A stretch of DNA of 64,000 bases from Chrysophaeum taylorii (Eukaryota; Sar; Pelagophyceae; Pelagomonadales; Pelagomonadaceae). Location of the stretch: the NCBI GenBank assembly GCA_029834535.1, contig JAQMWT010000314.1:620001-684000 (forward strand), given 5' to 3'. Shown here piece after piece: positions 1 through 64,000 of this stretch. The notes below the pieces were generated by a model that was given only the letters and a program-made list of their open reading frames with translations, made no database searches and was not told the DNA's origin. Positions within the stretch are counted from its first letter, which is position 1, and every line of letters begins with the position of its first letter. The position numbers were made by a program, and so were the translations under genes.

Positions 1-1
1 T

Positions 2-751
2 GGCCACATACGCCTCAATGCAGGCGATGCGCTCGCGAGTGGTGGCGTTGGCGGCGTTGTCGAGTTACGCGGCGGCGGTGGCGCGACGCGCGGCGGGAAC
101 ATCTCGCTCGCGACGGCCGACGGAGGCGACATCCGCGCGACGGTCGGTGCTTCGACACTCGGGGACGGCGGCGCACTCGTATTGAGCGCTGGCAACACGG
201 AGCTAGGCTCGGTGGGCGGACGGGCAGAAATCATCGCGGGGGCAGGCAGCGAGCGCGGCGGGATGGTGTCGATCCGAGCGGGGTCCTCCGCACTCGAAGG
301 TGGCGACGTCGTGCTCACGGGTGGTGAGGGCGACGGCAGCGGGGCCATTCGGCTCGACACGGCGACGGGTACGTGCTCGGGCGCCCTGCTGCTGCGAACG
401 GGCAACGCGACCGACGCGAGTGGCGAGATAAGCCTCGCCACGGGAGATGCTGACGAGGGACCGCCCGGACAAATCGCGCTGATGGTTGGCCGCGGCGGCA
501 GCAGCGGTGGCGACCTCACAGCCCAAGCTGGCGCGAGTGTCGACGGCCAAGGCGGCAGCGTGTTGGTGGTCGCGGGCTCAGGAAAGACGGCCGGCGGTGC
601 CTGCGTCGTGACCGCCGGCAACGCGACCGACGGCGCGGGTGGCAGCGTCGCCATCGCGAGTGGCAACTCGGGCGATGGAAGCAGCGGCGCGATCGAGCTG
701 TCGACTCCCGGGCTCCTCGACGGTGACGACGAGACGAGCGATGGAATCGGC
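2..751 (+). repeat. N-side super-units U0 (cut by window edge) and U1 (8 rungs, 125 aa)
   Basis: U0 enters from the left edge and ends at about 376 with a terminal rung reading AIRLDTATGTCSG. U1 runs 377-751 and ends with AIELSTPG followed by an Asp-rich extension. Terminal rungs here share the pattern hydrophobic-x-hydrophobic-x-Thr-Ala/Pro and lack the Gly found at that place in ordinary rungs. U1 opens with the rung ALLLRTGNATDASG, the same opening type used by later super-units. Rungs are irregular (13-18 residues) and Asp-rich. Boundaries were set by eye at the Ser/Gly-Gly pair after each terminal rung. Confidence 0.7.
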
Positions 752-3700
752 GGCGGCATTCGGCTCGCGACGGGCGACGTCGGCGGCAACCAGGCCATTT
801 CGGGCAGCATCGTCGCACTCACGGGATCGTCGGCCGATGGCGCGACTGGCGACTTGTGCTTAGCCACGGGCGACGCGACCACTACGACAGGAGGCATTCG
901 CGTCGCCGCAGGCAATTCTACCGAGAGCTCTGGTGGTGGCTGCGAGCTCGCTGCCGGCGACGGCGCCAAAGGAGGGGCTGTTCGGCTTGCTGGGGGCGCC
1001 GGCTCCGACTACGCCGGCGGTAGCGTGCGCATCGTCTCTGGGAGCTCATCGAGTGGCGCCGCAGGATCGATTTCGGTCGCCGCGGGTCGCGGTGGCAGCG
1101 CTGGCGGCTCGACAACCATCGCTGGCGGCGACGGCCAGCAGGGCGGCGCCGTCGAGATAACCGCGGGCAGCGGCACTGACTTTGGCGGAGGCCTCAAGTT
1201 GTCGAGTGGTGGCGGCCAGCGCGGCGGCGGAGAGGTCGACATCTGCACCGCCGAGAGCAGCGCCGACGATGGGCGCTCGGGTGACCTTACGATGCGCACG
1301 GGCGACGCGGCCGACGGAGAGCGCAGCGGTACGGTGCGCATAAACAGCGGCTGGTCCGCGAGTGGCTCGACGGGTGATGTCGCCGTGACCGTCGGCGACG
1401 GCGGCACATCGGGAGGCCGACTCCTGGTTGCAGCCGGGTCGAGCGGCACGCAGGACGGAGGCAACGTCTCGATACGCGGCGGCGACGGCGCGAGCGCGGG
1501 AAACGTAACCGTGTCGGCCGGATCGGCTGCGCAGGGCGGCACTGGCGGTCCGTTGCTTGTGTCGAGCGGCGAGAGCCGCGGCGACGACGGCGTGACAACC
1601 GGCTGCGTCGAGATCAGGACGCCAGCGGCCGCGACTCAGTCGGGCGATATCGTCGTCGCCACCGGCGCCGCTGCCGAGGCAGACTCGGGATCGGTCACTG
1701 TGGCGACCGGCACCGCGACCGAAGGCGCCGGAGGCAACCTCACGCTGCGCGTCGGCGAGGGTCGCGATGGACCCGGCGGGGCCGTGAACCTGAGCGCCGG
1801 GTCCACTTTCAGCGACGGCTTGGGGGGTGCGTGCTCGCTGTCGGCTGGCGATGCCGGTCGCGATGGTGGGGACATTCGCGTTTGTGGCGGCGACGGTGAA
1901 AACGCTGGTGGGAACGTCACGATTGCGGGGGGCGAGGCAACCGACGGCGTGGGTGGTGGCCTGCGGCTCGCGGCAGGAAGTGGCGGCGCAGAGGGTGGCG
2001 CGACGAACCTGACCGCCGGTAGCGGCGACGTTGGCGGCCACGTCTTCCTCCGCGCTGGTGATTCGTTCGAAGATGGCGTCGGTGGCGACGTCCAGTTTCT
2101 TTCTGGCAGGAGCGCGCACGCGACGACCGGCGCGATCGTTATCCGGACTGCGAGCGGAGCGACAACCGGGGGCATCGTCGTGCGGACGGGCGAGGCCACC
2201 GACGGCGACGGTGGCGCAATCGCATGTTTGACGGGGACTTCCAAGTCGGGCTCGAGCGGTGGCATTCGTTTTGTCGTAGGCACGAGCGCGGAAGGCGACG
2301 GCGGCAGCGTCAACCTGACCGCGGGCGAGAGCGCGGCGGCAGCGGGGGGCAACGTCTCGATGTCCGCTGGCACGGGCTCTGTTGGTGGTGCCATCGACGT
2401 GAGGGCGGGAGCGAGCGTCGAATCCGTTGGCGGCAACGTGACGCTCAAGAGTGGCGCTGGCGCGGCGGCGTCGGGCAGTATTGAGCTTGCGACCGCGGCC
2501 TCGGCGTCGACCGGCAACGTGTCTGTGCGCACGGGCGACGCCGGCGAGGGGCCATCGGGCACCGTGTCGGTGGTCACTGGGGGAGCGACGTCGAGCGCGG
2601 CCGGCGGTATTTTCTTCACCGTCGGCAGTGGTACCAGCGGCGATGGCGGTGCGCTGTCACTTGCCGCCGGAAACACGAGCGCGGGCGTTGGCGGCGACGC
2701 GACCCTGGCTGCCGGAACGGGCGATGTCGGTGGCTCGATCGCGCTCTGTGCGGGCGAAGGCACCGTCACCCGGGGCGGCTGGGTATGCGTTGGTGCAGGC
2801 GCCGGCGCCGAGGCTGGCGGCACGATCAACGTAACTGCGGGCGACGGCGGCGAAGCGGGCGGCAACATTAGCGTCGCGGGCGGCGCCGGCGACGTCGGCG
2901 GCTCCGTGACCATCCGTGGCGGGGCTGGAGACGAGACGGGTGGCGCCATAGAGCTCGCCAGCGGCGCTGTCAGCAACGAAGATGGAACGAGCGGTGACAT
3001 TTGGATCGCTTCCGCGTCGGTTGACGCGGGCGACACGGGTTCAATCACGATGCGCACGGGTGACTCCGAATCCGGCGCGACAGGTAGCATCGCGTGGACG
3101 ACGGGCAATGCACTCGGCGGCACCGCTGGCGGGATGTCGGTGGTTGTCGGCGAGAGCGGCTCGGATGACGGCGGGAGCGTATCGATCGCGGCAGGCGCCA
3201 GCACGGCTGGATCTGGCGGCGAGCTCGCGCTGCACGCCGGCGCGGGCGCGGATGGCGGTGGAAACTTGATCCTTCAAGCTGGCGCCGGCGACGGCGGAGC
3301 TGGTGGCGACGTCCGGCTGTCGAGCGGCGTCGGCACGGCCGACACGAGCGGAGATGTGACTATTCTCACGCCACCGAGCGACGAGGACGAGGGGGCTACG
3401 GGCGCCCTCTCGCTCGCGACGGGCTCGGCCGTAGACGCGTCGGGAGGCATCGCTCTCTGCACGGGGAGCTCGAGTTCGGGGAACAGCGGCGGACTGACGC
3501 TGAGCGTTGGGGCGAGTAGCAGCGGCGTCAGCGGCGACATTGCCGTTCTGGCGGGCAACGCGACTAGCACGCGGCGCGGCAGCGGAGGCGCGATCGAATT
3601 GCGCGCCGGCGACGGATACGCGGGAGGCGAGATCGCCGTTACTGGCGGCACTGGGCTGCGCTCTTCCGGTGGCGCCGTCAAGGTCCTAGCCGGCGCGTCG

Positions 3701-6700
3701 GACGCGGGGTTCGGTGCGCCCATCTCGCTCTGCGCTGGCTCGACTTCGGGTGGCGAGGCGCCGGGAGGGACGGTCGACGTTTGCGGCGGCGACGGACTCG
3801 GTACGACTAGCGGAGGGGGCAACGTGAACGTGATCGCCGGGTCGAGTGCCCTCGGCGAGGGAGGGCGGTTGTGCTTAACGAGCGGTGCGAGCGAGCGCTC
3901 GTCGAGCGGGCCGGTGTTTGTGGCGAGCGCAGACGCGGGGCGACGCGAGGCGAGTGGGAGTATGGTGCTGCGAACGGGCGACTCTGAAGAGAGTTGCTCG
4001 GGTTCGATCGTCGTGACAACCGGCGAGGCACGCGGCGGCCGCGGCGGCGAAATCGTGCTCATGGTCGGCACGGGTAACTCGGGTTCGGGCGGCAACGTCG
4101 ACATCTACGCGGGCGACTGCACCAACGGTGACGGCGGCGAGATTCTTCTCTGCTCGGGAGAGGGTCTCTCGGGTCGCGGAGGCGACCTCGTTTTCGAAGC
4201 AGGGCCGGGTTCGCCCGGCGGCGACGTTTACGTTAGCTCTGGCGGGGGCGTGTGTTCGAGCAGCGGCAGACTCTCGCTCCGCACAGCCAACGCGGAGAGC
4301 CGGGGTGACAGCGGTTCAATTGTCGTGCAGACGGGATCGACCGACAACGGCAACTCGGGTGCGATCCTCCTCGCGACGGGCGAGGCGACCGGTGGGAGCG
4401 GCGGCAGCATCGAGATCCACGTCGGCCACGGCGAAGAACGAGACGGTGGTGGCGTGTCTATCCTTGCTGGCGATAGCGACGAGGGCGTCGGTGGTTTTGT
4501 CTCTTTGCGGACGGGTTTTGGCGAATTGACGAGCAGTGGCTCCATGACACTCTCCACCGCCAACGCCGGCGAAGAAGGCGTAAGCGGTGCTTTGTCGGTC
4601 ACGACTGGTGACGCGACCGAAGGCAACAGCGGCCGGATCTGGCTTCAAACGGGCGACGCCGAGAGCGGCACCGGTGGCAGTATCAGCGTTCAGGTTGGCA
4701 GCGGGTCGTCGGGAACGGGTGGCCGCGTAGTCATGATGGCGGGCTACAGCGAGCAGAGCTCGAGCGGCGTCGTCACCGTGCGGACGATGAATGCGGGGAG
4801 GGAAGGCATCAGCGGATACATGCAGCTGCTGACGGGGAGCTCCTCGCTCGGCGACAGTGGCTTCATCTCTCTCGCGACCGGCGCGGCGAGCAGCGGCGAG
4901 GGGGGGGCAATTACCGTGCGCGTGGGCACGGGCGACAGCGGCAACGGCGGCGACGCCGTGCTCCGCGCGGGCGACACGACCGCGCGCGGCGAGCGAGGCG
5001 ACGAAGACGCCACCGCATCTGGTGGGGCTGTCGGTCTGATTGCAGGGGATGGCTTAGGTGCCGAATTGTCAACGGGTGGAGACGTCAGCGTGTTCGCCGG
5101 ATGCGGCCAAGCTGACACTGGCGGCTCCATCGTTCTCGAGAGCGGCTTTGGTAAGGCAACTACGAGTGGTTTTGTCGTGGTGAAGACGCAAAACGCGGGT
5201 GACCGCGGGGCATCGGGCAAGATCGAGTTCGCGACGGGTACGTCGTCGTTCGGGAATACTGGAATCATCAGCCTTGCCACCGGAGAGGCCGACTTCGGAA
5301 CGGGGGGCGAGATAGAGGTATTTGTCGGCACTGGAGACTCGGGCGACGGCGGAAGCGTCACGATCACGGCGGGCGAAACGACGCAGTCGGACAAAACAGG
5401 TGGCCGCATCGACGTGAACGCCGGAGACGGCGAGGGCACGTGCAATGGCTACGGCGGCGCCATCTTCATCACTGGCGGTCTCGGGAAGACGTCGTCGGGC
5501 GGGTCGATCTCGGTCTACTCGGGCTACGGCACGCGAACGAGTAGTGGAAATCTGACGCTGGTCACAGCCAACGCCGGCCAAGCGGGTGTTTCAGGTCACG
5601 TCATGCTAGCTACGGGGACGACATCCTCCGGCAACTCAGGCTGGATCAACATCAACAGCGGCGACGCCGAAGGTGGTCGCGGTGGAAATCTCACAGTTGC
5701 CGTCGGTACCGGCGACTCGGGCTCGGGTGGCAACCTGACGATGATGGCCGGCCAGAGCTACCCACGAACAGGTGGCTGCGTGAGCATCTGCACTGGCGAA
5801 GGGGCGACGACGACGAGTGGCACCATCTATTTTCGCACCGCGAACGCGGGGGATGCCGGCGCTAGTGGCGCCTTGTTCTTTAGCTCTGGCTCAGCAAGCT
5901 CTGGAAACAGTGGCGACCTGCTTCTTGGGAGCGGCGTCGCCACGGCGGGACGGGGTGGGCACATTTCAATCAGCGTCGGGAGTGGCACGAGTGGCATGGG
6001 AGGAGACATCGGCATCTATGCTGGGCGAAGCACGGAAAATACGGGCGGCGTGCTCGTATTGCACTCTGGCGAAGGCACGACGGCAACCAGCGGCCACATT
6101 GTCATTTCCACTGCCAACAGCGGCACCGCGGGTGCGAGCGGCTTCCTCGTGTTCAGTTCCGGTACGACCAGCGTGGGCAACAGCGGCCAACTCTGCCTCG
6201 GGACGGGGGCAGCAACGTCGGGCCGAGGAGGTGCCATCTATGCGAGCGTCGGCAGCGGAACGAGTGGTGCCGGTGGTGCGCTCCTAGTCGCTTCGGGTCG
6301 GAGCACCGTTAGTACGGGAGGCGCCCTGAACATAGAGGGCGGCGAGAGCACGGCGACGAGCAGCAGCAACATCGTGGTTCGGACCGCGAACTCGGGTGCT
6401 CGCGGCACGAGCGGCTGGCTTCATTTCAGCACGGGAAGCGCTTGCCAAGGTAACAGTGGAGCGCTGCATTTTGGGACGGGCGCTGCGACGCACGGACGCG
6501 GAGGCGCCGTCAGCGTCACGGTGGGTAGTGGAACCTCGGGCGGGGGCGGCGTGATTCGCATCTCCGCTGGTCGGAGTACCGTTGCCACTGGCGGCAGCAT
6601 TCTCGTGCAAAGCGGAGAAGGTACGGCAACGAGCAGCGGGTCCGTTTGCATTCATACGGGGAACGGCGGAGTCGACGGCTGCAGCGGATGCCTGGTTTTC

Positions 6701-9700
6701 AGTTCGGGATCTGCCAACGCCGGGAACAGTGGGGCGGTGCTTGTGGGTACGGGCGTCGGTACAAGCGGGCGCGGAGGGGTCGTCACCATCAGCGTGGGGA
6801 GTGGCACCAGCGGCGCTGGCGGTGAACTGAACTGCGTGTCGTCTCGTGCGACAGTCGCAAGTGGTGGCTTTCTCCTAGCAGCATCCGGCGAAGGTACCGC
6901 CACGAGCAGTGGCTCTGTGTGTATTGTTACCGCGAATGGTGGGGTGGCGGGTTCGAGCGGCTTCCTCGTGTTCAGCTCTGGTTCTACCAAGTCTGGAAAC
7001 AGTGGCGAGTTACGTCTCGGGACTGGCAGCGCAAGCAGCGGCCGAGGCGGATGCATCCACGTTGCTGTCGGCAGCGGAACAAGCGGTGCTGGCGGGTCGG
7101 TGACTGTTCAGAGCGGTCGTAGCACCGTCATGACGGGAGGCCCAGTACGGGTCCTTGGCGGCGAGGGCACAGCGACAAGCAGTGGCATGATCGTGATACG
7201 TGCGGCCAATGCAGGCGTCGCCGGGGCCAGCGGTATGCTGAGTTTCAGTTCAGGATCTGCGAGCGGCGGCAATAGCGGCGCGGTGCTTTTGGGGAGTGGC
7301 GCAGCAACAGGCGGCCGAGGAGGGGCTGTGCGCTTGGCTGTTGGAAGCGGTACGAGCAGCTCGGGTGGCAGCTTGTCGGCGCAAGCTGGTAGAAGCACTC
7401 TAGGCACGGGCGGCCTGCTTTGTTTTGTTAGCGGCGAAGGCACAGCGACCAGTAGCGGCGCGGTAAGCATCATCAGCGCAAACAGTGGGAGTGCGGGAGT
7501 CAGTGGCTATTTGGCATTCAGTTCGGGAAGTGCCAATGGTGGGAACGGCGGCACTCTGCTTCTCGGTTCTGGTGCCGCGTCTGGCGGACGCGGTGGTATG
7601 GTTCACCTGAGTGTCGGGAGTGGTACCAGCGGTGAAGGCGGTTCTATCTTCGCTTTCGCTGGGCGCAGCACGGTGCACACCGGTGGGCTCGTGTGTTTCC
7701 GGACTGGAGAAGGAACAGCGACGAGTAGTGGGGCCATCGAGGTTCTCTCGATGAACGCAGGTACCAGTGGGTCCAGCGGCCGCTTGGTTTTCAGCTCTGG
7801 ATCGGCCAAATATGGTAACAGTGGATCTCTGCTTCTCGGAACTGGAGCAGCCAGTGCAGGGCGAGGTGGTGGTGCGACGCTCGCAGTCGGCAGTGGCACG
7901 AGCGGCACTGGCGGTTGCTTTTGTATGTTTGCGGGCAGGAGCACATCCGGAAGTGGAGGATTCATGTTTCTCAGCACGGGCGAGGGGACTGCCACCAGCA
8001 GCGGTGCGCTATACGTGATGACGGCCAATGGTGGGGGTACGGGTGGCAGTGGAAAGCTCATTTTTAGTTCTGGTTCCGCGAGCGGTGGCAATAGCGGCTT
8101 ACTGAGCCTAGGCTCTGGTGGTGCTACAGGGGGGCGAGGCGGACTCGTGATTTTTTCGGTGGGGTCGGGCACCAGCGGCGAAGGTGGGTTCTTCCGGGCA
8201 TCCTCCGGACGTAGCACAGTTCACACCGGCGGCGCGGTTCGCGTGGCATCGGGCGAGGGAACCGCTACCAGCAGCGGCGTAGTCTACATCTCGACGGTCA
8301 ACTCTGGAGTAGCGGGTGTGAGCGGCCGACTCGCATTTAGTTCGGGTTCGGCATGCGCTGGGAACAGCGGCGCTCTCTTGGTCGGCTCGGGTACATCGAC
8401 GAGCGGACGTGGGGGTAACGTCGCAGTCAGTGTCGGAAGTGGTACAAGTGGCGCCGGCGGATACGTTCGTATAGAGGGTGGGCGATCACAAGCCGATGGC
8501 ACTGGTGGCATGATCGCCGTTGCCAGCGGCGAGGGGACGGCGACGAGTAGCGGCATGATAAGCTTGAGGAGCGCAAACGGCGGCGTTGGCGGCGGCAGCG
8601 GGAAGCTTGTGTTTAGCTCCGGTTCCGCGAACGGCGGCAATAGCGGGGCACTTTTGATTGGTTCAGGAGCAGCCACCACGGGTCGAGGCGGCGCCTTTGC
8701 CTTGGCGGTTGGCAGTGGGACCAGCGGTGTGGGCGGCGAACTATTAATACGAGCAGGTCAGAGCAAATATCGCACCGGGGGATGGGTCTCCTTGATAAGC
8801 GGAGAAGGAACTGCGACGAGCAGCGGTGCCGTGTTAGTACATACGGCAAATAGCGGCGTGGGAGGCACCAGTGGATGCCTCATATTTAGCACCGGGTCAG
8901 CAAATGTCGGAAATAGTGGCAAATTGTGTTTGGGCACAGGCGCATCATCGTCTGGGCGGGGTGGGTCGGTAGCCATCAGCGCTGGAAGTGGCACGAGTGG
9001 TGCCGGCGCTGCGGTGGTGATGCACAGCGGACGAAGCACTGCACACACTGGTGGAGCGATACTGATAAAGTCAGGCGAAGGCACAGCAACGAGCAGTGGG
9101 TGCGTGTACATACAAAGCATGAATTCTGGAGTGAGTGGTGTCAGCGGCATCCTCATCTTTAGTTCGGGTTCGGCATGCTCTGGCAACAGCGGAAGTGTTT
9201 TGATTGGCTCTGGCGCTGCGACGGCCGGGAGTGGTGGTGACCTGCGACTGAGTGTTGGAAGTGGTACGAGCGGTTTTGGCGGTCGGTTGACTATGGAGTC
9301 TGGCCGTAGTACTGTCCACACCGGGGGTACAGTGAGAATTGCTACTGGCGAAGGCACGACGACGAGTAGTGGTGCCATCCACATTCAAACAGCAAATTCG
9401 GGCGTTAGCGGCACCAGTGGGAACCTTGTGTTCAGTTCAGGATCCGCAACATCTGGGAACAGTGGGATGATACTTATTGGCTCAGGCGCTGCGACCGCAG
9501 GACGCAGTGGAGCTATCAGTGTCTCCGCAGGAAGTGGCACAAGTGGGTCTGGAGCATCAGTAAGCCTGATTGCGGGTCGTAGTTCCGTCCACAGTGGTGG
9601 TTGTATTGCTGTCAGTGCCGGCGAGGGCACGGCGACGAGTAGCGGGACGATTGTCGTGCGCTCGACAAATAGCGGAAGTGCTGGCTCGAGTGGAATGCTC

Positions 9701-51700: not shown

Positions 51701-54700
51701 CACACGGCAAATAGCGGCATTACGGGAACAAGTGGACTTCTTGTATTCAGCTCCGGGTCCTCGAAAACTGGTAACACAGGCGCCATAAAGTTAGGATCCG
51801 GGGTTGCAACAGGTGGCCGCGGCGGTGCAGTTACGATAAGTGTCGGAAGTGGGACAAGTGGCATAGGCGGCGTGTTGTTCATTGCTTCGGGGCGCAGTAC
51901 GTCAGCCACTGGTGGACTTATGCGACTTGAGACGGGTGAAGGCACGGCGACCAGTAGTGGGATGCTCGCTCTGCGATCGGCAAACGCCGGCGTGGCTGGA
52001 ATAAGTGGTATGCTTATCTTTAGCTCTGGATCTGCTGTCGGCGGCAATAGCGGCTGCGTCATGATCGGCTCGGGCGCTGCATCGTCTGGCCGCGGTGGTG
52101 CGGTGATGTTGAGTGTCGGCAGCGGCACAAGCGGCGCCGGCGGAGAGCTAACTTTGCTGTCTGGTCGGAGTACGTATGCTACTGGAGGTTCCATTATCGC
52201 GCATAGCGGTGAAGGGACAGCCTCGAGTAGCGGTGCGATCTTCGTGTGGAGTGCAAACAGCGGGATCAGTGGGGCTAGCGGATGCTTGGTCTTTAGTTCC
52301 GGATCTACGAAGGGTGGAAACAGCGGCATGATCAGCATTGGTACAGGCGCGTCGACAGCTGGCCGTGGCGGTGCGGTGAAGATTGCCGTTGGCAGCGGAA
52401 CGAGTTCGGCTGGTGGCCTCGTCAATATTGTATCAGGGCGAAGTACTACCCACAGCGGTGGATTACTGCAAGTTTCCACAGGAGAAGGCACTGGCACTAG
52501 CAGTGGTGGCATTATCGTCACATCAGCGAACAGTGGGGTTGCAGGAGTGAGTGGTAAGCTTGTCTTTAGCTCGGGAAGTGCCGCGGGTGGAAACTCGGGG
52601 TGCCTAATCGTCGCTTCTGGCGCCGGCACTGCTGGTAAAGGCGGCGCGGTCATCATCAGCACGGGAAGCGGTACGAGCGGTTCCGGTGGCATCATTGACA
52701 TGTGCGCTGGTCGTAGCACTGTACACAGCGGCGGAAGCGTCGCCATCGAGAGCGGCGAAGGTACAGCGACGAGTAGTGGTATCTTGGTTGTCCAAAGTAG
52801 TAATTCCGGCGCTGCTGGCGTGAGTGGTTGCCTCGTGTTCAGCAGCGGCTCAGCCAAGAATGGAAACAGCGGATGCGTGATGATCGGCACCGGAGCCGCA
52901 TCGTCTGGCCGCGGCGGTGCGTTTGCGATCAACGTCGGCAGTGGCACAAGTGGAGGTGGAGGAAGTTTCAGCGCATCAGCTGGTAGAAGTACTTCCGTCA
53001 CCGGCGGTCGCGTCGCCGTGATCAGCGGCGAAGGTACGGCCTCGAGTAGCGGTCAGATCTTCATCCATACGTCGAACAGCGGCATCTCTGGAACGAGTGG
53101 ACAATTGGTCTTTAGCAGTGGTTCCTCTAACACCGGCAACAGCGGCTGCTTGTGTGTGGGCTCTGGTGCTTCGACCGCTGGTCGTGGTGGGTCCGTCACT
53201 CTGGCCGTAGGGAGTGGCACCAGTGGAAGTGGTGGTGTGTTGAGCATGCGTGCCGGTCGCAGCACGGTTCAAACTGGGGGCATGGTCAGATTCACCACAG
53301 CCGAAGGTACTTCCACAAGTAGTGGGTCGCTATACATTCAGACGGCCAACGGCGGCGTGGGCGGTGTTAGCGGGCTTCTGGTGTTCAGCTCAGGATCCTC
53401 GAATGCTGGGAATAGTGGTGCGCTCCTTCTGGGATCAGGCGCTGCATCGTCGGGTCGCAGCGGGACAGTCAGGCTAACAGTTGGCAGCGGAACCAGCGGC
53501 GTGGGTAGCTGCTTAAGCGCGGACGCCGGTCGTAGTACTTCTGTCACCGGCGGCACGATTGCCTTGGTTTCAGGCGAAGGGACGGCATCCAGTAGTGGCA
53601 TTTTCACGATGATCTCAGCGAACGCAGGTGCGCAAGGTACTAGTGGGAGGCTAGTCTTCAGCTCGGGAAGCTCGTGTACCGGAAACAGTGGAGCGTTGGT
53701 GTTCGGCTCTGGGGCCGCAACAGCTGGTTCTGGCGGCTTCGTATGCCTCACAGTGGGAAGCGGTACGAGCGGGTTCGGCGGTGGGCTGAAGTTGGTATCA
53801 GGCAGCAGTTCAGTTAAGTCTGGCGGTATTCTTCGCCTTGGAAGTGGTGAGGGCACCGCGACGAGCAGCGGAGCTCTGCACATTCGTAGTGCAAACTCTG
53901 GCCTCGGTGGAACAAGTGGACGTCTACTGTTTAGCTCTGGGTCTTCCAAGACAGGGAATAGTGGCATGTTCTGCTTAGGCTCTGGTGCTGCAACTGGAGG
54001 TCGTAGCGGGTCAATAATCATCAGTGCCGGTAGTGGGACAAGTGGCGGAGGTGGCGCAGTGAGCCTCACCACGGGCAGAAGCACCGTGCAAACTGGTGGA
54101 GCCTTGGCTCTGTTTGCGAGCGAAGGAACCGCGACGAGTGGCGGCTCTCTGTTCGTACATACGGCGAATAGCGGCGTCGCGGGAACTAGTGGCCTCCTTG
54201 TATTCAGCTCCGGGTCGTCGAAAAATGGGAACACGGGTGCAGTAATGTTAGGATCTGGAGTTGGAACAACTGGTCGTGGAGGAGCAGTGATTATCGGTGT
54301 CGGGAGTGGTACGAGTGGCGATGGTGGGCGTTTCTTTGCAAGTTCTGGCAGAAGTACTACAGCTTCCGGTGGGTCCATCGTAGCCACAACTGGCGAGGGG
54401 ACCGCGTCTTCGAGTGGAGCCATAATCGTTACTAGCGCGAATACTGGTATCTCCGGCACAACGGGCAGGCTTGTGTTTAGCAGCGGTAGTGCCAAGGCTG
54501 GCAATAGCGGAGCCATTGCACTAGGTTCCGGCGCAGCTACAGCCGGTCGTGGTGGTGCCTTGCGTCTTGCTGTCGGCAGCGGTACGAGCGGAGCAGGTGG
54601 TGCCGTGAGCGTGGCGTCTGGGAGATCGACAGGTGCAACCGGTGGTGTTATCAGGATTGCAAGTGGTGAAGGCACAGCATCAAGTTCTGGCATGATCATC

Positions 54701-57700
54701 GTCGGAACTGCCAATGCGGGCGTGTCTGGGACAAGTGGGCGTCTTGTTTTCAGCTCTGGATCGGCATCCACTGGCAACAGCGGTTGTGTTGCCGTGGGCT
54801 CCGGTACCGCGACTGGTGGGCGTGGTGGGACTATTGCAATTATTGTCGGAAGTGGTACTAGTGGCGTCGGCGGAGCGCTGCAGGTTCAAGCCGGACGTAG
54901 CACGGTGTCTACTGGCGGAGCAATCTCGATCGCAAGTGGAGAAGGTACAGCGACTAGTAGCGGATGCGTACTCGTTTCGAGTGCAAATGCTGGAGTCACG
55001 GGAGTGAGCGGCGCGTTGGTTTTCAGTTCAGGTGCGGCGACGGCTGGTAGCAGCGGCGCCCTGCTTATAGGAACAGGAAGCGCAACAGGTGGTCACGGTG
55101 GCGCCGTGAATCTGGTCGTTGGGAGCGGAACCAGTGGAGTCGGTGGTTTGTTGATTGGGAATGCCGGGCGTAGCACGGTCGCGACGGGTGGTTCTGTCTT
55201 TTTGACTTCGGGTGAAGGAACCACAACCAGCAGCGGTGGCATCTTCGTCAGCAGCGCGAATGCAGGCGCCTCGGGTCAAAGTGGTGTGCTCGTCTTTAGT
55301 TCCGGGACGTCAAAGTCCGCAAACAGTGGCTCCATTCTTCTTGGCACTGGAAGTGCGACAGCTGGAACCAGCGGGGCAGTCACATTGAGCGTCGGGAGTG
55401 GAACTAGCGGTGTTGGCGGTCAGGTCAATGTGCTTGGCGGTCGAAGTACCGTAGCAACTGGCGGGTCGATTGTTGCCATGAGCGGTGAAGGCACCGCCAC
55501 TTCGAGTGGAGCCATCCTAATATCGAGTGCGAATGCTGGTGTTACGGGGACGAGTGGCAAGCTTGTATTTAGCACTGGAAGCGCGAAGGCTGGCAACAGC
55601 GGGGCCGTCTCGTTCGGCTCCGGTGCCGCAACGGGTGGAAGTGGCGGAACATTACGCCTCGGCGTCGGCAGCGGTACGAGCGGTGCAGGTGGAGCTGTGC
55701 ACGTTTCTTCTGGGAGATCAACAACAGCTACCGGGGGTGCTATCAGCATCGCAAGTGGTGAAGGCACGGCATCTAGCACTGGCGCCATTGTCATAGCATC
55801 TGCGAACGCGGGCGCGGCTGGGGCAAGCGGTAGGCTCGTCTTCAGCTCCGGGTCGGCGTGCACTGGAAACAGTGGTGCTGTTGCTGTGGGATCAGGGAGC
55901 GCAACTGGGGGTCGCAGTGGCACCGTCGCGATTGTAGTCGGAAGTGGCACTAGTGGTGCGGGCGGTCTTGTTCAGCTTCAAGCCGGCTTGAGCACTGTGG
56001 CAAGCGGAGGCTCGATCGTGGTCAGCAGTGGAGAGGGCACGGCGACGAGTAGTGGTAGTGTGTTTATCACGAGCTCGAATGCAGGCGTGGCCGGGACAAG
56101 TGGATCACTCGTCTTCAGCTCTGGCTCATCAGTCAGCGGAAATAGCGGTTCAATCTTTGCCGGGTCATGCACAGCAACCGGTGGGCGAGGTGGCGCTCTA
56201 ACGCTCTCCGTTGGGAGCGGCACAAGCGGCGTCGGTGGTGCAATCGTGGCTGCGAGCGGCCGAAGTACTGCGGCGACCGGTGGTTCCATGGTACTGGCTT
56301 CGGGCGAAGGAACGGCGACCAGCAGCGGAAGTATCTTGGTGAGTAGCGCCAATGCTGGTGGTGCAGGCTCGAGTGGTGCGCTTGTCTTCAGCTCGGGAAC
56401 GTCAAAGTCGGCAAACAGTGGTGGTATCTTTGTCGGAACTGGAGGCGCAACGGCTGGAACTGGTGGTGCGATCACCATAAGCGTCGGCAGCGGAACCAGT
56501 GGAGCTGGTGGTGACGTCTACATGCTTGGCGGTCGCAGCACCGTGGCAACAGGAGGGACAATAAATGCCATGAGTGGCGAGGGGACCGCGTCGTCGAGTG
56601 GAGCCATCGTCATTTCTAGCGCAAACGCTGGTGTTGCTGGCACTTCGGGGAATCTCGTTTTCAGCAGTGGTAGTGCCAAAACTGGTAATAGCGGAGCCAT
56701 TGCACTAGGTTCCGGCGCGGCTACAGTCGGTCGAGGTGGAGCCTTGAGACTTGCTGTCGGCAGCGGTACGAGCGGAACGGGTGGAGCCGTGCACGTGTCG
56801 TCTGGGAGATCGACTGGTGCAACCGGTGGTGTTATCAACGTTGCGAGTGGTGAAGGCACAGCATCAAGCTCTGGCATGATCATCATCGGAACTGCCAATG
56901 CGGGCGTGTCTGGGACTAGTGGGCGTCTTGTTTTTAGCTCAGGATCGTCATGCATGGGCAATAGCGGTGCTGTCTTAATTGGCTCAGGCCCAGCTACCAG
57001 TGGCCGTGGCGGTTGTATGGCGTTCGTCGTAGGAAGTGGTACCAGCGGGTCTGGTGGCGATGTACATTTCGAAGCAGGCCGCAGTACGGTTGCGACAGGC
57101 GGCATCATGTCTCTTCACAGTGGCGAAGGGACTGCTACCAGTAGTGGATCCATTCTCGTGATGAGCGCGAATGCCGGTTCCGCAGGAGAAACTGGCGTCT
57201 TAGTCTTTAGCTCTGGGGCATCGTCATCCGGTAACAGTGGAGCGATAGCCATAGGATCCGGCGCTTCAACAAATGGGCGTGGGGGGCGCGTCCACTTGTC
57301 CGTAGGAAGCGGAACGAGCGGTGAAGGTGGTTTGTTGATTGCAAGCGCCGGTCGCAGCACCGTCGCGACGGGTGGTTCTCTTATTGTGTATTCGGGTGAA
57401 GGAACCGCAACCAGCAGTGGCAGCATCATCGTTGGCAGCGCCAATGCGGGCACGTCAGGAGAAAGCGGTGTCCTAGTATTTAGCTCTGGCACATCGACAT
57501 CGGCGAATAGTGGTTCTATTCTTTTGGGAACTGGAAGTTCGACTGCGGGGACTGGAGGGACTGTACGGATAAGTGTTGGTAGCGGAACCAGTGGGTCGGG
57601 CGGTCGGGTCAATCTGTTCGCAGGTCGAAGTACAGTGGCTACTGGTGGGGCAATCATCGCTATGAGTGGCGAGGGTACCGCTTCGTCGAGTGGATCAATT

Positions 57701-60700
57701 TTAGTTTCGAGTGCGAATGCCGGCGTCGCTGGGACGAGTGGAAGGCTTGTATTTAGTACTGGGAGCGCGAAGGCTGGCAATAGCGGGGCCATTGCGCTCG
57801 GCTCAGGTACCGCAACCGGTGGAAGTGGTGGAACATTACGCCTCGGCGTCGGCAGCGGTACGAGCGGTGCAGGTGGAGCCATGCACCTGGCAGCTGGGAG
57901 ATCAACAGCCGCAACGGGCGGTGCTATCAGTATCGCAAGTGGTGAAGGCACGGCCTCTAGCACTGGCGCCATTGTCCTAAAATCTGCGAACGCGGGCGCG
58001 GCTGGGGCAAGCGGTCAGCTCGTCTTCAGCTCCGGGTCGGCGTGCACTGGAAACAGTGGTGCTGTTGCTGTGGGATCAGGGAGCGCAACTGGGGGTCGCA
58101 GTGGCACCGTCGCGATTGTAGTCGGAAGTGGCACTAGTGGTGCGGGCGGTCTTGTTCAGCTTCAAGCCGGCTTGAGCACTGTGGCAAGCGGAGGCTCGAT
58201 CGTTGTCAGCAGCGGAGAGGGCACGGCGACAAGCAGTGGTAGTGTGTTTATCACGAGCTCGAATGCAGGCGTGGCCGGGACAAGTGGATCACTCGTCTTC
58301 AGCTCTGGCTCATCTGTCAGCGGAAATAGTGGTTCAATCTTTGCCGGGTCATGCACAGCAACCGGTGGGCGAGGTGGCGCTCTAACGCTCTCCGTTGGGA
58401 GCGGCACAAGCGGCGTCGGTGGTGCAATCGTGGCTGCGAGCGGCCGAAGTACTGCGGCGACCGGTGGTTCCATGGTACTGGCTTCGGGCGAAGGAACGGC
58501 GACCAGCAGCGGAAGTATCTTGGTGAGTAGCGCCAATGCTGGTGGTGCAGGCTCGAGTGGTGCGCTTGTCTTCAGCTCGGGCACATCAAAGTCGGCAAAC
58601 AGTGGTGGTATCTTTGTCGGAACTGGAGGCGCAACGGCTGGAACTGGTGGTGCGATCACCATAAGCGTCGGCAGCGGAACCAGTGGAGCTGGTGGTGACG
58701 TCTACATGCTTGGCGGTCGCAGCACCGTGGCAACAGGAGGGACAATTGTTGCCATGAGTGGCGAGGGGACCGCGTCGTCGAGTGGAGCCATCTTCATTTC
58801 TAGCGCAAATGCTGGTGTTGCTGGAACTTCGGGGAATCTCGTTTTCAGCAGTGGTAGCGCCAAAACAGGTAATAGCGGAGCCATTGCACTAGGTTCCGGC
58901 GCGGCTACAGCCGGACGTGGTGGAGCCTTGAGTCTTGCTGTCGGCAGCGGTACGAGCGGAACAGGTGGAGCAGTGCTCGTGTCGTCTGGGAGATCGACTG
59001 GTGCAACCGGTGGTGTTGTCAGCGTTGCGAGTGGTGAAGGCACAGCATCAAGCTCTGGCGTGATTGTGATCGGTAGCACGAACGCTGGCGTGACCGGAAC
59101 GAGCGGTTGGCTCGTCTTTAGCTCTGGATCGGCATGCACTGGCAACAGCGGTGGGGTTACCGTGGGATCCGGCCCAGCGACTGGTGGGCGAGGGGGATAT
59201 GTTACTATTGCCGTCGGAAGTGGCACTAGTGGCGTCGGCGGAGCGCTGCAGGTTCAAGCCGGACGTAGCACAGCGTCTACTGGCGGAGCAATATCGATCG
59301 CAAGTGGAGAAGGCACAGCGACTAGTAGCGGATGCGTACTCGTTTCGAGTGCAAATGCTGGAGTCTCGGGTGTGAGCGGCGCGTTGGTTTTCAGTTCAGG
59401 TGCGGCGACGGCTGGTAGTAGCGGCGCCCTGCTTATAGGAACAGGAAGCGCAACAGGTGGTCACGGTGGCGCCGTGAATCTGGTCGTTGGGAGCGGAACA
59501 AGTGGAGTCGGTGGTTTGTTGATTGGGAATGCCGGGCGCAGCACGGTCGCGACGGGTGGTTCTGTCTTTTTGACTTCGGGTGAAGGAACCACAACCAGCA
59601 GCGGTGGCATCTTCGTCAGCAGCGCGAACGCAGGCGCCTCGGGTCAAAGTGGTGTGCTCGTCTTTAGTTCCGGGACGTCAAAGTCGGCAAACAGTGGCTC
59701 CATTCTTCTTGGCACTGGAAGTGCGACAGCTGGAACCAGCGGGGCAGTCACATTGAGCGTCGGTAGTGGAACTAGCGGTGTTGGCGGTCAGGTCAATGTG
59801 CTTGGCGGTCGAAGTACCGTAGCAACTGGCGGGTCGATTGTTGCCATGAGCGGTGAAGGCACCGCCACTTCGAGTGGAGCCATCCTAATATCGAGTGCGA
59901 ATGCTGGTGTTACGGGGACGAGTGGCAAGCTTGTATTTAGCACTGGAAGCGCGAAGAGTGGCAACAGCGGGGCCGTCTCGTTCGGCTCCGGTGCCGCAAC
60001 GGGTGGAAGTGGCGGGGCATTACGCCTCGGCGTCGGCAGCGGTACGAGCGGTGCAGGTGGAGCTGTGCATGTTTCTTCTGGGAGATCAACAACAGCTACT
60101 GGGGGTGCTATGAGCATCGCAAGTGGTGAAGGCACGGCCTCTAGCACTGGCGCCATTGTCATAGCATCTGCGAACGCGGGCGCGGCTGGGGCAAGCGGTA
60201 GGCTCGTCTTCAGCTCCGGGTCGGCGTGCACTGGAAACAGTGGTGCTGTTGCTGTGGGATCAGGGAGCGCAACTGGGGGTCGCAGTGGCACCGTCGCGAT
60301 TGTAGTCGGAAGTGGCACTAGTGGTGCGGGCGGTCTTGTTCAGCTTCAAGCCGGCTTGAGCACTGTGGCAAGCGGAGGCTCGATCGTGGTCAGCAGTGGA
60401 GAGGGCACGGCGACGAGTAGTGGTAGTGTGTTTATCACGAGCTCGAATGCAGGCGTGGCCGGGACAAGTGGATCACTCGTCTTCAGCTCTGGCTCATCAG
60501 TCAGCGGAAATAGCGGTTCAATCTTTGCCGGGTCATGCACAGCAACCGGTGGGCGAGGTGGCGCTCTAACGCTCTCCGTTGGGAGCGGCACAAGCGGCGT
60601 CGGTGGTGCAATCGTGGCTGCGAGCGGCCGAAGTACTGCGGCGACCGGTGGTTCCATGGTACTGGCTTCGGGCGAAGGAACGGCGACCAGCAGCGGAAGT

Positions 60701-63700
60701 ATCTTGGTGAGTAGCGCCAATGCTGGTGGTGCAGGCTCGAGTGGTGCGCTTGTCTTCAGCTCGGGAACGTCAAAGTCGGCAAACAGTGGTGGTATCTTTG
60801 TCGGAACTGGAGGCGCAACGGCTGGAACTGGTGGTGCGATCACCATAAGCGTCGGCAGCGGAACCAGTGGAGCTGGTGGTGACGTCTACATGCTTGGCGG
60901 TCGCAGCACCGTGGCAACAGGAGGGACAATAAATGCCATGAGTGGCGAGGGGACCGCGTCGTCGAGTGGAGCCATCGTCATTTCTAGCGCAAATGCTGGT
61001 GTCGCTGGCACTTCGGGGAATCTCGTTTTCAGCAGTGGTAGTGCCAAAACTGGTAATAGCGGAGCCATTGCACTAGGTTCCGGCGCGGCTACAGTCGGTC
61101 GAGGTGGAGCCTTGAGTATTGCTGTCGGCAGCGGTACGAGCGGAACAGGTGGAGCAGTGCACGTGTCGTCTGGGAGATCGACTGGTGCAACCGGTGGTGT
61201 TGTCAGCGTTGCGAGTGGTGAAGGCACAGCATCAAGCTCTGGCATGATCATCATCGGAACTGCCAATGCGGGCGTGTCTGGGACTAGTGGGCGTCTTGTT
61301 TTTAGCTCAGGATCGTCATGCATGGGCAATAGCGGTGCTGTCTTAATTGGCTCAGGCCCAGCTACCAGTGGCCGTGGCGGTTGTATGGCGTTCGTTGTAG
61401 GAAGTGGTACCAGCGGGTCTGGTGGCGATGTACATTTCGAAGCAGGCCGCAGTACGGTTGCGACAGGCGGCATCATGTCTCTCCACAGTGGCGAAGGGAC
61501 TGCTAGCAGCAGTGGATCCATTCTCGTGATGAGCGCGAATGCCGGTTCCGCAGGAGAAACTGGCGTCTTAGTCTTTAGCTCTGGGGCATCGTCATCCGGT
61601 AACAGTGGAGCGATAGCCATAGGATCCGGCGCTTCAACAAATGGGCGTGGGGGGCGCGTCCACTTGTCCGTAGGAAGCGGAACGAGCGGTGAAGGTGGTT
61701 TGTTGATTGCAAGCGCCGGTCGCAGCACCGTCGCGACGGGTGGTTCTCTTATTGTGTATTCGGGTGAAGGAACCGCAACCAGCAGTGGCAGCATCATCGT
61801 TGGCAGCGCCAATGCGGGCACGTCAGGAGAAAGCGGTGTCCTAGTATTTAGCTCTGGCACATCGACATCGGCGAATAGTGGTTCTATTCTTTTGGGAACT
61901 GGAAGTTCGACTGCGGGGACTGGAGGGACTGTACGGATAAGTGTTGGTAGCGGAACCAGTGGGTCGGGCGGTCGGGTCAATCTGTTCGCAGGTCGAAGTA
62001 CAGTGGCTACTGGTGGGGCAATCATCGCTATGAGTGGCGAGGGCACCGCCTCGTCGAGTGGATCAATTTTAGTTTCGAGTGCGAATGCCGGCGTCGCTGG
62101 GACGAGTGGAAGGCTTGTATTTAGTACTGGGAGCGCGAAGGCTGGCAACAGCGGGGCCATTGCGCTCGGCTCAGGTACCGCAACCGGTGGAAGTGGTGGA
62201 ACATTACGCCTCGGCGTCGGCAGCGGTACGAGCGGTGCAGGTGGAGCCATGCACCTGGCAGCTGGGAGATCAACAGCCGCAACGGGCGGTGCTATAAGTA
62301 TCGCAAGTGGTGAAGGCACGGCCTCTAGCTCTGGCGCCATTGTCCTAAAATCTGCGAACGCGGGCGCGGCTGGGGCAAGCGGTAGGCTCGTCTTCAGCTC
62401 CGGGTCGGCGTGCACTGGAAACAGTGGTGCTGTTGCTGTGGGATCAGGGACCGCAACTGGGGGTCGCAGTGGCACCGTCGCGATTGTAGTTGGAAGTGGC
62501 ACTAGTGGTGCGGGCGGTCTTGTTCAGCTTCAAGCCGGCTTGAGCACTGTGGCAAGCGGAGGCTCGATCGTTGTCAGCAGCGGAGAGGGCACGGCGACAA
62601 GTAGTGGTAGTGTGTTTATCACGAGCTCGAATGCAGGCGTGGCCGGGACAAGTGGATCACTCGTCTTCAGCTCTGGCTCATCAGTCAGCGGAAATAGCGG
62701 TTCAATCTTTGCCGGGTCATGCACAGCAACCGGTGGGCGAGGTGGCGCTCTAACGCTCTCCGTTGGGAGCGGCACAAGCGGCGTCGGTGGTGCAATCGTG
62801 GCAGCGAGTGGCCGAAGCACTACGGCGACCGGTGGTTCCATGGTACTGGCTTCGGGCGAAGGAACGGCGACCAGCAGCGGAAGTATCTTGGTGAGTAGCG
62901 CCAACGCTGGTGGTGCAGGCTCGAGTGGTGCGCTTGTCTTCAGCTCGGGAACGTCAAAGTCGGCAAACAGTGGTGGTATCTTTGTCGGAACTGGAGGCGC
63001 AACGGCTGGAACTGGTGGTGCGATCACCATAAGCGTCGGCAGCGGAACCAGTGGAGCTGGTGGTGACGTCTACATGCTTGGCGGTCGCAGCACGGTGGCA
63101 ACAGGAGGGACAGTTAATGCCATGAGTGGCGAGGGGACCGCGTCGTCGAGTGGAGCCATCGTCATTTCTAGCGCAAATGCTGGTGTCGCTGGCACTTCGG
63201 GGAATCTCGTTTTCAGCAGTGGTAGCGCAAAAACTGGTAATAGCGGGGCCATTGCACTAGGTTCCGGCGCGGCTATAGCCGGGCGTGGTGGAGCCTTGAG
63301 TCTTGCTGTCGGCAGCGGTACGAGCGGAACAGGTGGAGCAGTGCGCGTGTCGTCTGGAAGATCGACTGGTGCAACCGGTGGTGTTGTCAGCGTTGCGAGT
63401 GGTGAAGGCACAGCATCAAGCTCTGGCGTGATTGTGATCGGTAGCACGAACGCTGGCGTGACCGGAACGAGCGGTTGGCTCGTCTTTAGCTCTGGATCGG
63501 CATGCACTGGCAACAGCGGTGGGGTTACCGTGGGATCCGGCCCAGCGACTGGTGGGCGAGGTGGATGTGTTACAATTGCCGTCGGAAGTGGTACTAGTGG
63601 CGTCGGCGGAGCGCTGCAGGTTCAAGCCGGACGTAGCACGGTGTCTACTGGCGGAGCGATCTCGATCGCAAGTGGAGAAGGTACAGCGACTAGTAGCGGA

Positions 63701-64000
63701 TGCGTACTCGTTTCGAGTGCAAATGCTGGAGTCTCGGGTGTGAGCGGCGCGTTGGTTTTCAGTTCAGGTGCGGCGACGGCTGGTAGCAGCGGCGCCCTGC
63801 TTATAGGAACAGGAAGCGCAACAGGTGGTCACGGTGGCGCTGTGAATCTGGTCGTTGGGAGCGGAACAAGTGGAGTCGGTGGTTTGTTGATTGGGAATGC
63901 CGGGCGTAGCACGGTCGTGACGGGTGGTTCTGTCTTTTTGACTTCGGGTGAAGGAACCACAACCAGCAGCGGTGGCATCTTCGTCAGCAGCGCGAATGCA
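2..64000 (+). CDS. Internal fragment of a giant Gly/Ser-rich beta-solenoid-like repeat protein (both ends outside window)
   Basis: The frame opening at base 2 closes exactly on base 64000 with no stop found, giving 21,333 codons. Coding is supported because conserved residues keep their identity while third bases vary freely (the motif VGSGTSG is written with many codon combinations) and because every repeat is a multiple of three. Composition is Gly, Ser, Thr, Ala, Val and Leu, with little Pro, His, Gln, Tyr, Trp or Lys and scattered Cys. Rungs of 14-18 residues, mostly 15, each carry an alternating hydrophobic strand and a Gly turn, as expected of a beta-solenoid. No signal peptide, membrane segment, enzyme motif or anchor domain is visible; these would lie outside the window. 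At about 0.48 nm per rung, some 1,400 rungs would stretch roughly 0.65 micrometre (inference). I do not recognise a named family. A surface adhesin, cell-wall or filament protein is plausible but unproven. Confidence 0.9.
752..1639 (+). repeat. Long-short super-unit pair U2 (175 aa) + U3 (121 aa)
   Basis: U2 (752-1276) has 12 rungs and closes with EVDICTAESS. U3 (1277-1639) has 8 rungs, opens with DLTMRTGDAADG and closes with CVEIRTPAAATQSG. The pair is 296 residues. Both parts begin with two TG-type rungs and have a VG-type rung near the start of the short unit, as in the next pairs. Confidence 0.7.
1640..2509 (+). repeat. Long-short super-unit pair U4 (175 aa) + U5 (115 aa)
   Basis: U4 (1640-2164) again has 12 rungs and exactly 175 residues, closing with AIVIRTASGATTG. 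U5 (2165-2509) has 8 rungs and closes with SIELATAASASTG. The pair is 290 residues. The sequence differs from the neighbouring pairs at most positions, so this is an old duplication kept by structure rather than a recent copy. Confidence 0.7.
2510..3397 (+). repeat. Long-short super-unit pair U6 (175 aa) + U7 (121 aa)
   Basis: U6 (2510-3034) has 12 rungs and 175 residues. Its third rung, IFFTVGSGTSGDGG, already carries the VGSGTSG motif that later becomes invariant. It closes with DIWIASASVDAGDTG. U7 (3035-3397) has 8 rungs and 121 residues and closes with DVTILTPPSDEDEG, a strongly acidic turn. The pair is 296 residues, the same length as U2+U3. Confidence 0.7.
3398..4309 (+). repeat. Long-short super-unit pair U8 (185 aa) + U9 (119 aa)
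   Basis: U8 (3398-3952) has 12 rungs, several stretched, including a turn with two Arg (TSTRRGSGG), and closes with PVFVASADAGRREASG. U9 (3953-4309) has 8 rungs and closes with RLSLRTANAESRGDSG, the first terminal rung with the TANA motif seen in all later units. The pair is 304 residues. This is the last complete long-short pair. Confidence 0.7.
4310..5590 (+). repeat. Transitional super-units U10-U13 (91, 76, 134 and 126 aa)
   Basis: U10 (4310-4582) is the first unit of exactly 91 residues and six rungs. U11 (4583-4810) has five rungs because the fourth and fifth are merged. U12 (4811-5212) and U13 (5213-5590) have eight rungs, with two extra rungs and enlarged acidic loops between rung 3 and the last rungs. 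All four start with the opening TG rung, have VG.G.SG as third rung and end with T.NAG, so they link the irregular left region to the uniform array. Confidence 0.75.
8321..8596 (+). repeat. The only 92-residue unit: one extra codon in rung R4
   Basis: This unit spans 276 bp. Its R4 turn reads GGRSQADGTGG (about 8479-8511) where neighbours read like GGRSTVHTGG, so one residue is added in the turn and an Asp introduced. From 8597 on no further net change in unit length was found, so this is the last length variation in the visible array. Confidence 0.85.
10749..12382 (+). repeat. Left copy of a recent six-unit segmental duplication
   Basis: About 1.63 kb is nearly identical by eye to 14025-15658, displaced by 3,276 bp (exactly 12 units). 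Both edges fall in the rung R5/R6 part of a unit. The few differences are mostly synonymous (for example a Gly-Glu-Gly-Thr context with acggcc against acagcc) or single substitutions (Ala to Asp near 12179 against 15455). Confidence 0.85.
14025..15658 (+). repeat. Right copy of the recent six-unit segmental duplication
   Basis: This is the partner of 10749-12382. Left of it the two loci diverge at once, and right of it the sequence turns into type 2 of the nine-unit repeat at 15695. The DNA between the copies (12383-14024) is not duplicated at this level of identity. Confidence 0.85.
22793..24976 (+). repeat. Eight-unit copy with hybrid type 7/8 unit at 24431
   Basis: The copy runs 1-2-3-4-5-6-(7/8)-9. 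The unit at 24431-24703 has type 7 sequence in R1 and R2 (MISIGTGASTAG) and type 8 sequence from R3 on (GSGTSGSGGS, then VCAGRSTVHSGG). One unit has been lost by an in-register exchange in R3, about 24524-24568. R2 also has Gln in place of the usual Arg (AGQGG). Confidence 0.85.
24545..30450 (+). repeat. Nearly identical tandem copies of the nine-unit repeat (2.4 copies)
   Basis: Sequence from about 24.55 kb recurs at +2,457 (27.0 kb) and +4,914 (29.46 kb) with only scattered single-base differences by eye, many of them synonymous. A few change residues, for example Ser to Asn near 28363. Identity drops after about 30.15 kb and persists more weakly to about 30.45 kb. This is the most recent tandem amplification in the nine-unit region. 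Confidence 0.85.
32348..35623 (+). repeat. Twelve-unit copy with hybrid type 9/6 unit at 34532
   Basis: The copy runs 1-2-3-4-5-6-7-8-(9/6)-7-8-9. The unit at 34532-34804 starts as type 9 in R1 (CLVFSSGSAKSGNSGC) and continues as type 6 from R2 (GSGTASSGRG, then the type 6 LTLRSGRST in R4). Three extra units result. The junction lies between R1 and R2, where both types share NSGC. Confidence 0.85.
35624..37807 (+). repeat. Eight-unit copy with hybrid type 7/8 unit at 37262
   Basis: The copy runs 1-6, then a hybrid unit at 37262-37534 with type 7 R1/R2 (MISIGTGASTAGRGG) and type 8 R3/R4 (GSGTSGSGG, VCAGRSTVHSGG), then 9. R3 reads IVGGSGTSG, so the usual Val-Gly is Gly-Gly at the seam. Types 1-3 (about 35.83-36.2 kb) also match 38.01-38.38 kb at an offset of 2,184 bp. 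Confidence 0.85.
39540..43984 (+). repeat. Nearly identical tandem pair of nine-unit copies with a divergent island
   Basis: About 39.54-41.53 kb matches 42.0-43.98 kb at +2,457 bp with few differences, except for about 42,770-43,040. There the right copy departs from the left at many positions (for example SMRSGRST against SMQSGRST, and a different R6 in the following unit) before identity resumes. The pattern fits gene conversion from another copy. Confidence 0.8.
45179..48454 (+). repeat. Second twelve-unit copy with hybrid type 9/6 unit at 47363
   Basis: The copy has the same order as the copy at 32348: 1-8, then a 9/6 hybrid (47363-47635: CLVFSSGSAKNGNSGC followed by type 6 IIGSGAASSGRGG and LKLLSGRST), then 7, 8 and 9. 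It lies exactly 12,831 bp (47 units) downstream of the first and, like it, is followed by an eight-unit copy. Confidence 0.85.
48455..50638 (+). repeat. Third eight-unit copy with hybrid type 7/8 unit at 50093
   Basis: The copy runs 1-6, then a hybrid unit at 50093-50365, then 9. The switch is slightly earlier than in the other two hybrids: R2 begins as type 7 (LISIATGASTG) and R3 is already type 8-like (VISVGSGTSGSGG). The type 9 unit that follows matches 32.04-32.38 kb at an offset of 18,291 bp (67 units) better than nearer copies. Confidence 0.8.
54326..64000 (+). repeat. Second higher-order repeat: 2,184-bp half-period, 4,368-bp full period
   Basis: The 273-bp units continue in register, but unit types differ: R6 reads SSANAGV rather than SANSGV, and one R4 has Leu for Arg (AGLSTVASGG at 55981, 58165, 60349 and 62533). 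About five units (for example 55.5-56.88 kb) recur every 2,184 bp with almost no differences. The intervening three units alternate between two forms: form one at 54.86-55.5, 59.23-59.87 and 63.6 kb onward; form two at 56.88-57.69 and 61.25-62.05 kb. The full period is therefore 16 units. Near-identity starts at about 54.86 kb and weaker similarity at about 54.42 kb. The array is still running at the window edge. Confidence 0.88.

Follow-up and report, generated by a model that had tools for sequence, protein, structure and literature searches.

A stop-free frame of 34,841 codons in the alga Chrysophaeum taylorii may encode a secreted, self-segmenting giant fibre protein

Titin (about 35,000-38,000 aa, split across many exons) and PKZILLA-1 and PKZILLA-2 (45,212 and 35,528 aa) mark one end of the size range of known proteins. 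Phage endosialidases, tailspikes and tail fibres carry a Peptidase_S74 (ICA) domain (PF13884; S74 hereafter) that starts with S-D-x-R-x-K, and the endosialidases are cleaved between the Ser and the Asp. Two papers report that the endosialidase reaction depends on trimerisation (PMC3742443) and that the S587/K592 dyad of the eukaryotic protein MYRF cleaves only as a trimer (PMC8326128). Here we analyse a stretch of 64,000 nt from the pelagophyte alga Chrysophaeum taylorii (‘the window’; C314:620001-684000, plus strand, C314 being contig JAQMWT010000314.1 of assembly GCA_029834535.1, 70.8 Mb in 697 contigs), which lies within a single open reading frame. We are highly confident that the gene to which it belongs is real and under selection. 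Its product, a giant protein of short repeats (‘rungs’) with two S74 domains, is on balance best read from its sequence as a secreted, trimeric, self-segmenting, micrometre-scale extracellular fibre made from one intact gene.

At 35,000 aa and 3.16 MDa in a spliced model, for which a single 59-nt intron is postulated close to the 3′ end, the protein is very large, as the preliminary description of this DNA proposed. It is not the largest predicted protein, but it belongs to the same size class as titin and the PKZILLA proteins, from which it differs in domains and role; unlike titin, it is encoded nearly all in one exon. The PKZILLA proteins are named in PMC12300183, and PMC11573180 describes some Omnitrophota proteins as larger than eukaryotic ones. 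The Omnitrophota giant open reading frame of V. archaeovorus LiM (39,678 aa; PMC10066038) is alike in size class, in having few annotated domains and in its proposed surface role, but is bacterial and has 42 predicted transmembrane helices.

With the phage ICA proteins the giant protein shares the S74 domain and its S-D-x-R-x-K start, and by analogy trimerisation and self-cleavage may be expected here likewise. It differs from phage fibres in being a 35,000-aa eukaryotic chain, two rung pieces of which had no PHROGs match; the internal position of its S74 domains and the cellular nature of the flanking genes tested place it outside the phage tail fibres. MYRF, also eukaryotic with an internal ICA domain and a Ser-Lys dyad, demonstrates that an internal position works, whereas the ICA domains here are flanked by thousands of rungs. 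Each S74 domain is preceded by 700 aa and followed by up to 400 aa that read as rungs, with no MYRF-type DNA-binding domain or transmembrane segment (Pfam scans covered pieces of 226 and 240 aa around the S74 domains, and no membrane-helix predictor lies behind this comparison).

Frame 2 of the window contains no stop in 21,333 codons, where 784 would be expected from base composition. Frames 1 and 3 contain 774 and 850 stops, and the five frames other than frame 2 have between 135 and 1,053 each. As TAA, TAG and TGA are all absent from frame 2, its openness is independent of the genetic code chosen. The frame runs past both window ends, from stop to stop over C314:592381-696906 (34,841 codons). 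The earlier picture of one uninterrupted frame of at least 21,333 codons, with neither end visible in the window, is thus borne out. A chance open frame was considered and is ruled out by the stop counts set against composition, together with the codon-pattern constraint among repeat copies. The many minus-strand open frames of the window are in our judgement shadow frames, and neither RNA families nor tRNAs were found in the window.

Features of the giant gene on contig C314 (a window coordinate equals the C314 coordinate minus 620000)
Feature	Position	Strand	Remarks
Exon 1, whole (104,475 nt)	C314:592390-696864	+	gene model
Signal-peptide-like start	C314:592390-592455	+	hydrophobic, by eye
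Cys-rich PSI-like part	C314 about 592465-592800	+	PF01437 20.5 bits
Peptidase_S74 no. 1	C314:603871-604059	+	dyad S3828/K3833; PF13884 54.8 bits
Peptidase_S74 no. 2	C314:617719-617913	+	dyad S8444/K8449; PF13884 44.2 bits
Part of exon 1 in the window	window 2..64000	+	residues 9,205-30,537 of 35,000
Rungs of ~15 residues, mostly unique DNA, passing into 91-aa units off the main-array register	window 2..8524	+	
In-register array, 91 aa = 273 nt = six rungs; 203 units in window	window 8525..64000	+	
Youngest higher-order repeat, lag 4,368 nt (16 units), continuing beyond the window end	window 53439..64000	+	
Putative 59-nt GT-AG intron	C314:696865-696923	+	prediction, one site pair
Exon 2: 175-aa head and stop	C314:696924-697451	+	frame and sense resume after intron

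The rung-like periodicity that had been reported for this DNA is real: rungs are about 15 residues long and follow a strict position pattern. In segments of 1,750 aa, periods of 14-15 aa predominate from residue 1 up to residue ~10,500 (in the first segment a period of 240 lies slightly ahead of 15), and beyond that point the period is 91 aa, with higher orders of 728, 819 and 1,456 aa. Each 91-aa unit consists of five rungs of 15 residues and one of 16, and 244 consecutive units (aa 12,046-34,249), every one at least 45% identical to the consensus, succeed one another in a register that never shifts. When all six rungs of the 203 window units are counted, one of V, I, L, M and F fills position 2 in 0.99 of cells and position 4 in 0.96, with mean entropies of 1.47 and 1.59 bits; positions 1, 3 and 5 average 2.95, 2.84 and 2.19 bits. 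Hydrophobic positions 2 and 4 with variable positions 1, 3 and 5 are as a strand with one buried face would be expected to appear in sequence, although two features run against so simple a picture: hydrophobic residues also fill position 3 in 0.46 of cells, and positions 3 and 5 of the rung CLVFSS are near-invariant (1.1 and 0.0 bits). We counted 2,047 occurrences of the motif G-x-h-x-h-x-x-G, compared with a mean of 449 across 20 shuffles. Among all 35,000 residues, 60-aa segments with five or fewer Gly are confined to the N terminus, the head and both S74 regions.

The repeat copies carry a record of selection. Nei-Gojobori comparisons between copies gave ratios of non-synonymous to synonymous change (dN/dS) of 0.20 to 0.25 at four lags, rough figures, as the proportion of synonymous differences (pS) is close to saturation at most lags. 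In the stretch starting at codon 11,000, pS is near 0.73-0.75 and the proportion of non-synonymous differences (pN) is near 0.50-0.57, a high value because that part is not yet in array register. Within the young block, at a lag of 1,456 codons, pS/pN was 0.227/0.080, 0.118/0.031 and 0.042/0.011. The youngest block compared (93.5% DNA identity) has 856 differences, distributed over codon positions 1, 2 and 3 as 217, 141 and 498; the non-synonymous ones number 392, as against 523-603 in 200 random placements. Just one difference would, taken alone, make a stop (random placements: mean 14, minimum 4), and that codon in fact carries more than one base change, neither copy having a stop. The copies are linked by duplication, perhaps conversion, and their differences are not independent events.

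Both S74 domains lie upstream of the window, which explains why they were missed when the protein was described as having no catalytic or binding domain. That statement holds for the window pieces scanned: Pfam found no family on three 1000-aa pieces (3,000 of 21,333 residues), and NCBIfam and PHROGs found none on two of these. It fails for the whole protein, in which two S74 domains score, as tabulated, above the curated PF13884 cut-off of 22 bits (hmmscan), open with S-D-x-R-I-K and have the Lys five residues past the Ser of the dyad. The first domain has the MYRF ICA domain as its best PDB sequence match (7dc3, E 2.1e-7), and of the 16 PHROGs families that it matches, 12 bear the name tail fibre or tail spike. 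Searched with PF13884, the alga’s own genome gave eight places, two in the 34,841-codon frame and two on contig C341, and the Ser-Lys dyad is kept in all four of these domains. The four further places are C587:137018, C443:242884, C323:43968 and C109:200542, three of them in frames of 2,768 to 4,072 codons.

Database relatives with a similar layout were recovered with two queries, the first 1000 window residues (seven proteins among 7,999 scored) and the region of the first S74 domain (six among 8,000). These proteins, P0001-P0013, have rung motifs in common with the giant protein; they are 418-1,726 aa long, and many are probably fragments. S-D-x-R-x-K is present in P0002, P0003, P0005 (first domain), P0008, P0009, P0010 and P0012 and was not seen in P0001, P0004, P0006, P0007, P0011 or P0013. 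The S74 domain stands between rungs in P0005 (twice), P0008, P0009, P0010 and the C341 gene (twice), near the sequence end in P0002, and toward the C terminus in P0003 and P0012. A search of genome_contigs for bacterial proteins with this type of S74 domain gave 135 pattern matches, none of which was confirmed. A literature search found no earlier report of such proteins, and we make no wider claim that they are unreported.

The conserved dyads suggest that the giant protein is probably cut by its own S74 domains. A less likely reading, which still deserves some weight, is that these domains act as trimerising spacers only, the rungs forming a coat or adhesin of some other fold and the chain remaining uncut. 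Such a role would suit S74 domains that are internal rather than terminal, a fibre fold that structure prediction does not support, and the second S74 domain of P0005 (residue 768 region), in which Ala replaces the catalytic Ser while the Lys is retained. It sits poorly with the dyads of all four domains on C314 and C341, and with those that P0008, P0009 and P0010 retain in their internal domains.

An inflated assembly, in which a shorter real gene had its repeats multiplied or joined by the assembler, is improbable. Parts of the 4,368-, 2,457- and 2,184-nt repeats are young, and the rung stretches of C341 and C531 are split over several frames and reach the contig end, as such an error might leave them. 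However, the share of exon 1 lying in repeated exact k-mers falls from 33% (40-mers) to 10% (300-mers) and 0.0% (1000-mers), the fraction in repeated 40-mers is 0.00 over its first 35 kb, and changes between copies are mainly at synonymous sites. Misassembly, which the preliminary description had named as a way to refute the frame, is thus unlikely, and the youngest 4,368-nt repeats may number a few copies more or fewer than assembled. Still less probable is a relic, a once-coding array no longer made as one protein. A broken fragment on the minus strand of C203 (84762-85559), 77% identical to the window start and with two stops, speaks for it; against this stand 34,841 codons without a stop, the constraint still visible in the youngest copies (pS 0.042, pN 0.011), and a start, S74 dyads, putative splice site and head that appear intact. 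The synonymous excess and the absence of 1-kb exact repeats make a selected coding gene far likelier than an artefact or pseudogene. Least credible is a viral or transposon origin, whether as a recently captured phage-like fibre or as a piece of an endogenous giant virus: the phage names among the PHROGs matches and a reverse-transcriptase frame (RVT_2) ~19 kb upstream of the giant gene point that way, but the giant gene has a class-III aminotransferase gene and an EF-G-like gene as neighbours, single queries with window:2-3001, the head and the first S74 region each drew no relative from viral_contigs, and an alignment query confirmed two of 33 matched stretches (L039 and L040), by eye tail-fibre-like, with a C-terminal S74 and without these rungs.

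At its 5′ end the gene model begins with the first Met, codon 4 of the stop-to-stop frame (C314:592390), followed by a hydrophobic stretch and then the Cys-rich part; a start and signal-peptide-like sequence were thus found in the flank, where the preliminary description had proposed to look. The N-terminal 537-aa piece had no sequence match in the PDB. The C-terminal anchor that had been expected was not seen: the model ends in the head, which has no obvious membrane helix (by eye, no predictor). This head is 55% identical to a second one at C531:24575-25078 and has no Pfam match. A partial duplicate of the head end, 86% identical, lies just past the stop codon at C314:697513-697599. We consider the giant protein likely to be secreted, and a long extracellular fibre slightly the better bet.

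Several observations, besides the near-saturation of pS, weigh against the reading as a secreted, self-segmenting fibre. The PSI-like match (PF01437, 20.5 bits) is under the curated cut-off of 23.1, the intron is predicted from a single GT-AG site pair, and the head has no relatives outside its own genome among 8,000 scored candidates or in viral_contigs. The ICA domain is C-terminal in phage tailspikes, whereas here it is internal and occurs twice, and the Ala of P0005 indicates that cleavage is not universal. Lastly, an AlphaFold2 prediction of four units (pLDDT 41.7, pTM 0.29) does not support the fold. Strands in that model are spaced like rungs up to residue 231, with only two called after; we regard it as neutral on a trimeric fold, neither for nor against. 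Of the solenoid-like rungs described earlier, what stands is the sequence periodicity.

Rungs also occur elsewhere in the genome. A second rung gene starts near C341:210 kb and ends near the contig end (C341:210390-299357); it is divided among several frames (11,082, 6,270, 3,313 and 2,401 codons among others) and has a PSI-like match of 43% besides its two S74 domains. GT..AG candidates are present at 10 of 10 frame joins, 3 to 30 at each, which is little proof of splicing, and by eye the later joins look like frameshifts. An inverted 748-codon rung frame near the contig end (L029; C341:297114-299357, minus strand) is possibly an assembly fold-back. Rungs and a head, broken into several frames, also occupy C531:1-25078.

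The GC content at third codon positions (GC3) changes along the giant gene, being 0.84-0.87 over aa 1-8,736 and 0.50-0.55 within the 91-aa array, the drop spanning window 1-12000 (aa about 8,700-12,000); two neighbouring genes have values of 0.79 and 0.86. Had conversion recurred, one would expect a higher GC; GC3 of the array is lower instead. The alga is probably of the red lineage. Its rbcL was located on C697, a contig of 103,599 bases; the closest PDB chains to it are diatom and other red-type Rubiscos, and among plasmids the highest identity was 77.8%.

Our data are consistent with a model in which one intact nuclear algal gene, with a 104,475-nt exon and a short second exon, yields a 35,000-aa chain that would enter the secretory pathway by its signal-peptide-like start and PSI-like part. 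Each rung (x-h-x-h-x-s-G and a Gly-rich turn) would form one short beta-strand stacked along the chain, and the stacked rungs a long thin fibre, with the C-terminal head as a cap. The two internal S74/ICA domains would gather three chains and, once trimerised, cleave them between Ser and Asp at S3828 and S8444, which would leave trimeric pieces 3,828, 4,616 and 26,556 aa long. If a rung is taken as 15 residues and 0.48 nm, the pieces would measure about 122, 148 and 850 nm, values that would differ if the rungs form a three-chain helix. The product would be a micrometre-scale extracellular fibre with its length set by rung number. More speculatively, and doubtfully at present, the protein may be a self-segmenting molecular ruler, with about 2,300 rungs (length/15) on each of three chains fixing the length of a ~1 micrometre fibre, as base, neck and shaft (about 0.12, 0.15 and 0.85 micrometre) of an appendage on the algal surface, for example a flagellar hair.

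Overall, if it is expressed as modelled, the protein would stand in the size class of the largest known proteins while being encoded almost wholly by one 104-kb exon. Were the proposed mechanism true, a viral fibre-maturation domain would have found a new setting, in an extracellular polymer of a eukaryote, one able to trimerise and to cut itself internally. The 244-unit in-register array represents a natural record of rung selection, with free variation on one strand face. The giant gene also offers a test of how a chain of 3 MDa is translated, folded and secreted by a cell, and of whether the length of a protein may set the length of a micrometre-scale cell structure.

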